From: a virus
DNA: 44,557 nucleotides
Strand: one strand, 5' to 3'
IMG/VR virus record: IMGVR_UViG_3300030739_000003
Location: 1-44,557 of that record
Below the pieces are notes generated by a model. It ran no database searches, was not told where the DNA came from, and saw nothing but the letters and a program-made list of their open reading frames with translations. Below are positions 29,174 to 35,700 of the stretch, one piece after another (positions within the stretch are counted from its first letter, which is position 1; every line of letters begins with the position of its first letter). Made by a program: the position numbers and the translations under genes.

Positions 29174-29232
29174 GTGGGTTCTCCTTGACCTCCAGGGCCG
29201 TATGTGCAATCTGTAGCGCCTTGGAGACACGG

Positions 29233-31122
29233 ATGCAAGCCCCAAATTACAGCCCAAGGCACCTCGCAGCGCGCACGTATGCGACTGAAGGAATGCCGGT
29301 TTTCCCGTGCGTTGTCAACGGAAAAGAACCCGCGACCGCTCACGGCCTCAAAGACGCGACCATTGACTTGGCCGTGATTGATGCATGGTGGTCCGAGGCT
29401 GACTACAACGTCGCTCTGTGCCCGGACGATTGCGGCTGGCTAGTCGTGGACCTGGACACACCCAAGCAGAAGAAGGACGGGACGTGGACCGAAGACGGGC
29501 GCGAGACCTGGGCCAAGCTCCAGGCTGAACACGGCGCGGCCGAGAGCTACACCGTGACCTCGCCTCGCGGTGGCCGTCACATCTATTACGAAGGTTCCGG
29601 CCGGTCGACGGTGCAGTCAGCCCTTGGCCCTGGCGTCGACAGCCGGGGTGTCGGGGGATACGTCTTGCTCCCGCCAAGCGTGGTCGACGGCAAACCCTAT
29701 GTCGCCAACAACGCAGAGATCGAGCCGCTACCGGCCTGGGTTTCGAACATGCTGGCGACTAGCGTCCGCGAGGCCCGTGAGGTCACGACCGACCTAGACG
29801 CGCCTGCGTCCATTGACCGCGTCAAGCGGCTCCTGGCGTCCGCCGCGCCGGCCGTGGAAGGCGAGGGTGGCGACGATGCGACCTATCGTCTGGCGTGCCG
29901 CGTGCGCGAGCTAGGGGTCTCTGAAGAGACAGCCAACGATCTCATGGCGACCTGGAACGAGCGGTGTGAGCCGCCGTGGGAGCCGGACGAGCTGGCGGAC
30001 AAGATCGCCCACGCTTACGACTACGCCCAGAATGGCGAGGGCGCGTGGGCCGTCGAGGCGGCGTCATCCATGTTCGGCGGCTATGCTCCGCCGGCCGATG
30101 AGAAGCCCGCGCCCAGCAAGTGGAAGCTCTATTTCCCCAAGGATCAGGATGCGTGGCCGGAACCCGAATGGCTTATTCCTGGCCTACTGCCCAAGCAAGG
30201 CCTCGCCATGATCTATGGGAAGCCGGGGACGTGGAAGACCTTCGCCGCCCTAGACCTCACGCTAGGCCTAGCCGCCGGGCTCCCTACGTGGGGCTCCAGC
30301 GCCGCTGCGCCTGCCCCCGTCCTCTATCTAGCCGGCGAGAGCCCACGCGGGATCGGCAAGAGCCGGCGGCCGGCGTGGCAGATATTCCGAGGCGTCGAAC
30401 GCGTCGCCCTGGATGAGACCTTTGCCATTGGCCCCGATATGCCCAAGGCCTATGACCCCCTGCAAGTGCGGGACATGGTCGAAGCGGTCCAGGCTACCGG
30501 CTACGCGCCTAAGATCGTGGTCGTGGATACCCTAGCCCGGTTCGCCGCCGGCCTGGACGAGAACGCGGCCAAGGACATGGGCAACGCTGTCGAGGCCCTG
30601 GACTTCATCGCCAAGGCGTTCGACTGCCTCGTTCTCGTCTTGCACCACGCCGGGGCGAACACAGACCGCGTGCGCGGCTCCAGCGTGATTGAAGGCGCGT
30701 TCGATACCATGATAGAGGCCGAACGCTTCAAGGGCCTCCCGGCGCTGGCGCTATGGGTCCGGAAACAGAAGGACGCGCCGGAGCGCGCTCAGCCCTTGAC
30801 GTTCGAGGTGCGTAGCTTCGGAGGGTCGGCGGTCCTATCACCTACCACGCCCGAGGAGCACGCGCGGCTGGTCGAGAGCCCCGATGCGATCTCTCAGGCC
30901 AAGGTAGGGGCCGCTCTCGTGAAATTAGGGGCGATGAGCCTACAGGCGTCGGTCTCCGCGCACGTGGTAGCGAATGAATTGCTCCCGCCGAACGAGGTCG
31001 AGGGTGTCGAGGAACGCCAAGAGGCGATTGAGGCTATGGCCCGTCTCCTGAAGCGCCGCGCCCGGAAAGACCTGTCGGCCTACGTCGATGGCGACAAGTG
31101 GCGTATCCCGGTAGTGTCCTGA
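29233..31122 (+). CDS. Primase-polymerase with RepA-like ATPase
   Basis: A 629-residue fusion. The N-terminal domain is a bifunctional Prim-Pol: YATEGMPVFPC, then GWLVVDLDTP with the metal-binding Asp-Leu-Asp, and SPRGGRHIYYEG. The C-terminal domain (from residue about 300) is a RecA/RepA-type ATPase with Walker A MIYGKPGTWKTFAALDL, Walker B KIVVVDTLARF and VLVLHHAG. It should prime and unwind DNA at the replication start. Start at ATG 29233 (TTGGAGACACGG). It is the only rightward gene within the leftward block and is bounded by a bidirectional terminator. Confidence 0.88.
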   Translation: MQAPNYSPRHLAARTYATEGMPVFPCVVNGKEPATAHGLKDATIDLAVIDAWWSEADYNVALCPDDCGWLVVDLDTPKQKKDGTWTEDGRETWAKLQAEHGAAESYTVTSPRGGRHIYYEGSGRSTVQSALGPGVDSRGVGGYVLLPPSVVDGKPYVANNAEIEPLPAWVSNMLATSVREAREVTTDLDAPASIDRVKRLLASAAPAVEGEGGDDATYRLACRVRELGVSEETANDLMATWNERCEPPWEPDELADKIAHAYDYAQNGEGAWAVEAASSMFGGYAPPADEKPAPSKWKLYFPKDQDAWPEPEWLIPGLLPKQGLAMIYGKPGTWKTFAALDLTLGLAAGLPTWGSSAAAPAPVLYLAGESPRGIGKSRRPAWQIFRGVERVALDETFAIGPDMPKAYDPLQVRDMVEAVQATGYAPKIVVVDTLARFAAGLDENAAKDMGNAVEALDFIAKAFDCLVLVLHHAGANTDRVRGSSVIEGAFDTMIEAERFKGLPALALWVRKQKDAPERAQPLTFEVRSFGGSAVLSPTTPEEHARLVESPDAISQAKVGAALVKLGAMSLQASVSAHVVANELLPPNEVEGVEERQEAIEAMARLLKRRARKDLSAYVDGDKWRIPVVS

Positions 31123-34538: not shown

Positions 34539-34877
34539 TCAAGCGAGAGTGAGATCGCGGCCGGCGCGTTCAACGATCCGGCTAGGGCCAAGATCCGTGA
34601 TAGCGAAGGCTTCTTGATCGGGGAACAGGTCGAACGCGTCGTTGGTCAGAAGCTCGATAATCTTGCCGTCCGCGATGACCTGGACGGGGAAGATCAGCTC
34701 ACGCTGAATTTGCCCCTCGGTCATCTTGTAAGCGCCCTGGACCGATGGCATTTCAGTCACGCCACCCGCGAGGTCAATGCAGCGCTTGGCGAAGTCGCGG
34801 CGGGCTTCCTCATAGTTTCGCACGCCGTCATTGTGCAGGGCCGGCAAGAGGATTTGATAGTTGTGTTTCGTGGTCAC
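34539..34877 (-). CDS. Hypothetical protein, GTG start (112 aa)
   Basis: The start is GTG at 34877, whose last bases overlap the stop of the zinc-finger-like gene (GTGA), with AAAGGAAG upstream. It appears as a compact alpha/beta domain: [53 protein letters not shown]. No known family. It is the third gene of a coupled trio starting with the alanine-repeat protein. Confidence 0.72.
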
Positions 34878-35026
34878 GATCTAGCTTCCTTTTGTTTGCC
34901 TTCACAGAGGAGGGCATGAGACTTGGCCGCATAATTGGAGGTGAGCTTGCGCCCACAATCGCATTCATAGCGGATCGGAGCCGGCGAGCGCAAGCCCGGC
35001 AAAATCGCCCGTTGTTCTCGTGTCAT
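34874..35026 (-). CDS. Small zinc-finger-like protein (50 aa)
   Basis: Starts at ATG 35026, overlapping the stop of the alanine-repeat gene as ATGA, and ends overlapping the next GTG start. The sequence is [20 protein letters not shown] followed by [20 protein letters not shown] and [10 protein letters not shown]. The spacing of Cys-x-Cys and His-x4-Cys suggests a single small zinc finger. Earlier in-frame starts exist only in the repeat DNA and give meaningless Arg/Gly sequence, so the short form is preferred. Function unknown; zinc-finger-like peptides of this size often bind nucleic acid or proteins. Confidence 0.65.
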
Positions 35027-35622
35027 CCGAAGATCGCCAAGAAGCGCTCGCGTTGAGCCGCACGAGCCGCATTCGCCGCCGCATTCGCCGCCGCACGAGC
35101 CGCATTCGCCGCCGCATTCGCCGCATTCGCCGCCGCATTCGCCGCCGCATAAGCCGTTTCGGGAGCCGCATCCGCCGCCGCATTCGCCGCCGCACGAGCC
35201 GCATTCGCCGCCGCATCCGCCGCCGCATAAGCCGTTTCGGGAGCCGCATCCGCCGCCGCATTCGCCGCATCCGCCGCATCCGCCGCCGCATTCGCCGCAT
35301 CCGCCGCATCCGCCGCCGCATAAGCCGTTTCGGGAGTAGGATTGGCGAGACAGGCCTGCCCGGCGTCGATGGCGGCTTGAACGCGCGGGTCGGGATTGAG
35401 GTAGGCGACGGATTGAGCCTCGCCGAGGGCGAACTCTACGCACTGGCGTTTCAGGCCGAGCCTCCCAGCAACCCACAATAGGTCGGGGATGGACACGCCG
35501 GCCGCCAGGGCTTCCTTGGCCGTGAAATACTTCTTCCGGCCAAAGTCAGGGACCTTGTCAGTCGAGCACGGGCGCAAGGCCAACGCTTCCTCACGGGTGA
35601 GACGAATCGGGGTCTTGGACAT
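35023..35622 (-). CDS. Alanine-repeat protein (199 aa)
   Basis: Starts at [20 protein letters not shown] (35622) with TATGGAGGATACT. The first 100 residues are a normal folded domain ([60 protein letters not shown]). The remainder is a long Ala/Asn/Asp helix built of [11 protein letters not shown] and [10 protein letters not shown] units, the latter three times, ending in [12 protein letters not shown]. Such repeats form extended helices. Role unknown: perhaps an adaptor or decoy. It is expressed from a strong promoter (35790-35819) with a long leader. Confidence 0.8.
35060..35330 (-). repeat. Tandem DNA repeats coding for Ala-rich helix
   Basis: The stretch is made of GCCGCATTCGCC- and GCCGCATCCGCC-type units, with a longer unit containing CGCATAAGCCGTTTCGGGAG present at about 35147, 35225 and 35317. 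Units are variable in number, so the protein's length probably changes by recombination or slippage. Both strands of this DNA are open in several frames, which is a consequence of the repeat. Confidence 0.85.
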
Positions 35623-35669: not shown

Positions 35670-35700
35670 TAAGCGTTGTGCAAGGGACTTGTAAGCGTTG
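35670..35700. repeat. 9-bp direct repeats TAAGCGTTG
   Basis: TAAGCGTTG occurs at 35670-35678 and 35692-35700, 22 bases apart, about two helical turns. They lie between the leftward promoter at 35790-35819 and its gene. The spacing suits a protein binding on one face of the DNA. Confidence 0.5.

Follow-up and report, generated by a model that had tools for sequence, protein, structure and literature searches.

The architecture considered here, an N-terminal domain followed by an alanine array in which other residues recur at a spacing of three or four, and by a C-terminal tail that is short and hydrophobic, is found in gp10 of the Salmonella phage 9NA and its Sashavirus, Vibrio and Shewanella relatives. 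The Pfam families closest to such a domain are DUF6931 (PF22011), to which no function has been assigned, and Imm5_like (PF21805); a literature search found nothing on either, and Imm5 has been described as mostly alpha, with conserved R and D residues (PMC3482391). Small classical zinc fingers (C2H2 or C2HC) have a beta-beta-alpha fold and the pattern (F/Y)-x-C-x2-C-x12-H-x3-(H/C), with hydrophobic core positions. At the RNA or DNA level, the Cluster K mycobacteriophages carry a 13 bp start-associated sequence (SAS) and 17-bp imperfect repeats of conserved sequence, the extended SAS (ESAS), which includes inverted repeats; both are repeated elements placed directly upstream of the start codon in some of the non-structural genes (PMC3203893).

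The DNA analysed here (the window) spans the 44,557 bases of a virus record. Its genes include those for tail, endolysin, terminase, head-tail adaptor, DNA polymerase, helicase, exonuclease and primase proteins, and their layout suggests a short-tailed phage. Genes 1 to 5 lie on the minus strand and gene 1 opens a leftward block of genes (Table 1), with GGAGG, a strong ribosome-binding site, directly 5' of its ATG. We note that one gene within this otherwise leftward block, a primase/polymerase-helicase-like gene at 29185-31122, is on the plus strand and is conserved in several relatives.

Table 1. Coordinates of genes, protein segments, hairpins and the promoter-like site in the window, and of hairpins in three related contigs.
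Feature	Position	Strand	Description
Gene 1	35622-35023	-	199 aa, alanine array; ORF in sequence and in relatives
N-terminal domain of gene 1	35622-35338	-	~95 aa; PC...F..A..AG.SI.DLLWVAG.L..K..CV.FAL..A; DUF6931/Imm5-like
Alanine array of gene 1	35337-35050	-	three PETAYAA units; AAA/AA-spaced D, N, R (i,i+3/i+4)
Gene 2	35026-34874	-	50 aa, zinc-finger-like Cys/His; ATGA overlap with gene 1
Gene 3	34877-34539	-	112 aa; GTG start overlaps gene 2 stop (GTGA)
Gene 4	34467-34012	-	151 aa; 60% identity over 87 aa in L016, order kept
Gene 5	33937-33227	-	hairpin 3 before its Shine-Dalgarno site
Hairpin 1	35649-35634	-	TAGGC-GCTTAT-GCCTA; one base before GGAGG of gene 1
Hairpin 2	34499-34484	-	TAGGC-GCTCAT-GCCTA; before Shine-Dalgarno site of gene 4
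Hairpin 3	33972-33957	-	AGGGC-GCTTAT-GCTCT; before Shine-Dalgarno site of gene 5
Promoter-like site	35819-35790	-	sigma-70-like, TTGACA-18-TATAGT; 11/12 consensus matches
L016 hairpins	5963, 6966, 7588		GCCTAAC-GCTTGT-GTTGGGC; TGTAGAGC-GCTCCC-GCTCTGTA; GAGC-GCTCTT-GCTC
L030 hairpins	5392, 5968, 6685, 6933		four, one before array gene
L047 hairpins	3175, 3495, 3811, 4717		four, one before array gene

The gene 1 protein contains 77 alanines, and its array, which Tandem Repeats Finder (TRF) places at 35057-35327 with unit periods of 9, 12, 21, 33 and 78 and scores up to 337, is followed by a short tail (QRxxFLxIF) running to the stop codon. The same domain and array occur in at least 14 other virus contigs; the number of relatives rose from two in a first scan to 13 in an alignment-based one, and a wider scan reached 18 loci, the majority of them on shared contigs. 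Every complete copy has a domain of about 95 residues, an alanine-rich array in which the other residues are typically spaced by 3 or 4, and a tail that is short and hydrophobic, for example QRxxFLxIF. Cultured phages with this architecture include Salmonella phages 9NA, Solent and Sergei, E. coli phage PDP46 and several Vibrio and Shewanella phages, and profile-profile comparison (hhalign) of the window-type contigs with the cultured-phage group gives a probability of 95.8 (E = 6.8e-9). With a homologous N-terminal domain, an in-frame alanine array and a conserved C-terminal tail, gene 1 is, judged by its sequence, a member of the 9NA gp10-type family. The two differ in that domain identity is only about 20% and that the 9NA type has no PETAYAA units, no zinc-finger gene seen alongside and no GCUYNN hairpin in front; they agree in layout, the 9NA array gene also being leftward and divergent from the large terminase gene. 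That divergent arrangement is found in most contigs having both genes, at a distance of a few kb or less, and the array gene region is by its position accessory and probably early. Members of the family turn up in very dissimilar phages, among them Salmonella and E. coli phages that are easy to grow, yet wherever they are annotated they are labelled 'hypothetical'. For one Vibrio phage (L035, 4324-4397) GenBank lists the alanine repeats of the gene as CRISPR spacers, clearly an artefact. In the Vibrio phage SUMAE (L041, 208-2028) a 606-aa protein ends in the domain and a short array, and this fusion may be a clue to function.

Searches with the window protein itself were largely silent. Against Pfam and PHROG at E values up to 1 it returns compositional noise, so that its connection to DUF6931 would be one of kinship through relatives, several of which exceed the curated cut-off of 27 bits in matches that span the domain and some of the array: L007 and L021 (one contig fetched twice) score 35.9 and 34.3 bits and L018 scores 29.1. 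The nearest relative of the window (L016, also recovered as L004), whose domain is 75% identical, reaches 25.9 bits, just under the cut-off, and the N-domain alone matches DUF6931 in 7 of 12 family members. Of the two grounds named together for abandoning the original prediction, a housekeeping phage homologue of the domain and a lack of coupling in relatives, the first was not found; the second is taken up below. The phage collection gave no match to the region DNA or to the window domain, a plasmid search was likewise negative, and bacterial genomes yielded one marginal, partial planctomycete match lacking the array.

A folded domain followed by a long repeat helix had been predicted, and the domain and the alanine array are both there in the sequence. 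The AlphaFold2 model is all-helical, with helices in the domain and an array broken near each PETA unit, and speaks against a single long helix, with the proviso that mean pLDDT is 71-75 for the whole protein and about 50-65, a low confidence, in the array. Antifreeze-like and DNA-binding (histone-like) arrays were also considered and rejected; the window array is acidic (pI 4.1, compared with 4.4 for 9NA gp10) and no match supports either. PDB sequence matches, among them a designed helical barrel, are compositional or weak, PDB fold searches produced nothing convincing (hits weak or compositional, one search having compared three chains only), and NCBIfam matches (GltJ and others) are alanine-rich artefacts.

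We therefore regard gene 1 as one of a widespread, uncharacterised family of accessory tailed-phage genes, and put at about one in two the fuller reading in which it would encode a binding protein made early, in a leftward operon with overlap-coupled genes 1-3 and hairpin-marked initiation at genes 1, 4 and 5. What is observed directly is homology, a conserved layout of domain, array and tail, purifying selection acting on the domain, rapid turnover of the array, in frame, among cultured relatives, and an accessory placement that is often divergent from the terminase genes. We infer further that the product would be a non-enzymatic binding protein, early expression being read from gene position and one consensus promoter; its compact helical domain (DUF6931/Imm5-like) may bind a host or competitor protein, and the array may act as a length-tolerant helical spacer or bundle.

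Action against host factors, as first proposed, is possible for the gene 1 product, the only hint in that direction being weak similarity to Imm5_like 'putative immunity' proteins. A stronger version, in which the domain would block one particular host defence effector or toxin in the way predicted for Imm5-type immunity proteins, and so provide counter-defence or superinfection immunity, is a live but less likely reading, the most probable of the alternatives. Imm5_like matches are present in 6 of 12 N-domains and in L032, which has the best score (19.5 bits), but all stay under the curated cut-off of 25 bits, and the window protein has none. The accessory location and patchy spread over unrelated phages would suit such a role, and rapid array change could reflect an arms race; however, it is the array that varies and the domain that is conserved, the reverse of what is expected if the domain were under pressure to escape. 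Nothing nearby is recognised as a toxin or defence gene, and PADLOC gives nothing for the operon.

Gene 1 had originally been viewed as part of a three-gene unit, the most distinctive unexplained element of this DNA, and several components of that view are borne out. The coupled reading frames are present as ATGA and GTGA overlaps, and the 50-residue Cys/His protein is encoded as described, with the motif Y-x-C-x1-C-x12-H-x3-C; all four ligands are conserved in L016. The knuckle is one residue shorter than in the classical pattern, and no Pfam family scores above its cut-off, but the protein looks like a small, putative classical zinc finger. The unit itself fares less well. The interval originally assigned to it, 34874-35622, covers genes 1 and 2 only, and the operon is longer than three genes, since gene 4 is syntenic in L016 as well. 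The nearest relative keeps the order 1-2-3-4 and both overlaps, with 78% identity in the zinc finger and 32% in gene 3, and it is the only other contig in which the zinc-finger gene was found. Because that gene was not found beside the domain-array gene in the remaining relatives, where the coupling is likewise missing, the three-gene unit is on present sequences a local assembly, shared with a single close relative. The domain-array protein, by contrast, is common in unrelated phages that lack genes 2 and 3, and is not distinctive to this phage.

These observations also bear on the idea that co-translation reflects assembly of the alanine protein, the zinc finger and the gene 3 product into one functional complex. 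Preservation of both junctions and of the zinc finger in L016 is in its favour, but phage operons often contain such overlaps, no zinc-finger gene was detected with the domain-array gene in any other relative, and in L026 the gene 3 homologue is not adjacent to the array gene but some 1.6 kb upstream; we consider such a complex improbable. Under the preferred reading, of gene 1 as an early binding protein, genes 1-3 would simply be translated in sequence through their overlapping stop and start codons, the zinc-finger protein being a partner by location only.

Comparison of the window with its nearest relative gives a dN/dS of about 0.18 (0.217/1.18) for the domain and about 0.14 (0.151/1.12) for gene 2, so that both are genuinely coding, with purifying selection on the domain. 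The array behaves differently. A comparison of repeat numbers among strains had been suggested, and it is informative: 9NA (L037), Solent (L057) and Sergei (L058) have identical domain DNA over its 276 nt but encode proteins of 202, 183 and 149 aa. What differs is the array, in frame, between the unchanged domain and an unchanged C-terminal tail. At the sequence level the array is thus hypervariable in these Salmonella phages, with fast in-frame turnover, and such natural variants with identical domains make the role of the array directly testable. Since the helical spacing is preserved across relatives that use different codons (GCG in the window, GCC in L002) and different non-alanine residues (Y/D/N/R, W/S/E or H/N/Y), the array seems to be selected as a helix and hardly for length. 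That it is a neutral DNA repeat carried along by slippage with no role of its own, as GC-rich tandem DNA and strong length change among near-identical phages might suggest, is the least likely of the alternatives, given that frame and AAA/AA spacing are kept in this way and that the C-terminal motif after the array is conserved.

A second feature of the operon is a small RNA hairpin in the leaders of genes 1, 4 and 5. The sequence TAGGCGCTYATGCCTA precedes genes 1 and 4, and AGGGCGCTTATGCTCT precedes gene 5; all stop just short of the Shine-Dalgarno site, and the consensus is a GCU[CU]NN hexaloop on a covarying stem of 4-8 bp. The orthologues of these three genes in L016 are also preceded by hairpins, whose stems differ but whose loops are related. 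In a single leader such a hairpin is reached in 0.5-2.4% of dinucleotide shuffles; none is present in 16 other gene leaders of the window, and when all 64 loop triplets were scanned in the window and L016 regions, GCT alone occurred, six times. Two further phages have four hairpins each: L030, with none in the 31 kb of its remaining genome that was read, and L047, a contig found by a DNA pattern derived from L030. Because the loop rule was framed after the first cases (the window and L016) had been seen, these two provide independent support. The ten distinct hairpin sequences have 96% paired cells, with four of five pairs changed on both sides, and their covariation score is reached by no shuffle. 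In all four phages the hairpin-bearing genes include the alanine-array gene, and the hairpin is missing from most other relatives. It has no match in Rfam, and outside these phages pattern scans of viral collections turned up no more than two isolated hits (L055 and L056), both chance-like.

The nearest described idea that we found for this element is the SAS of the Cluster K mycobacteriophages (PMC3203893), which it resembles in placement and not in sequence or form; the hairpin has a conserved hexaloop and a covarying stem before the Shine-Dalgarno site, whereas SAS is defined by its sequence and the imperfect repeats of ESAS are conserved in theirs, and the 13-bp SAS (GGGATAGGAGCCC) is absent from start sites in the leaders examined. 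This repeated hairpin before several genes of the operon seems not to have been reported previously. It is probably a translation-control element read by a phage or host factor, and would mark initiation at genes 1, 4 and 5. The zinc finger is unlikely to be that reader, as the hairpin occurs in L030 and L047 with no such gene seen alongside. We tentatively propose a putative, undescribed phage RNA element, a GCU[CU]NN-hexaloop hairpin set against the Shine-Dalgarno site, that might coordinate translation of an early gene block through a dedicated loop-binding factor; one regular client would be a tunable early effector whose array can change in length, without loss of frame, much more rapidly than the remainder of its gene. 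Should the hairpin prove to be a genuine control element, it would illustrate how unrelated early phage genes can be marked for joint translational control. The hairpin and the hypervariable array merit more attention than the three-gene coupling.

The strong promoter and long leader of the original prediction are partly upheld. The sigma-70-like site is a close match and leaves gene 1 a leader of about 160 nt, but one such site in the region compares with 1.5 in shuffles and is not above chance, so that it is the quality of the match that argues for it. The gene 1 leader also carries AACGCTTR repeats (four in the window against 1.3 expected, a weak excess), and two copies of AACGCTTA lie in it 22 bases apart on the minus strand (35670-35677 and 35692-35699), with a similar motif in the L016 leader. 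Upstream of the promoter-like site, a strong terminator-like hairpin of 13 pairs (36175-36146, minus strand) divides the gene 1 unit from the small genes before it.
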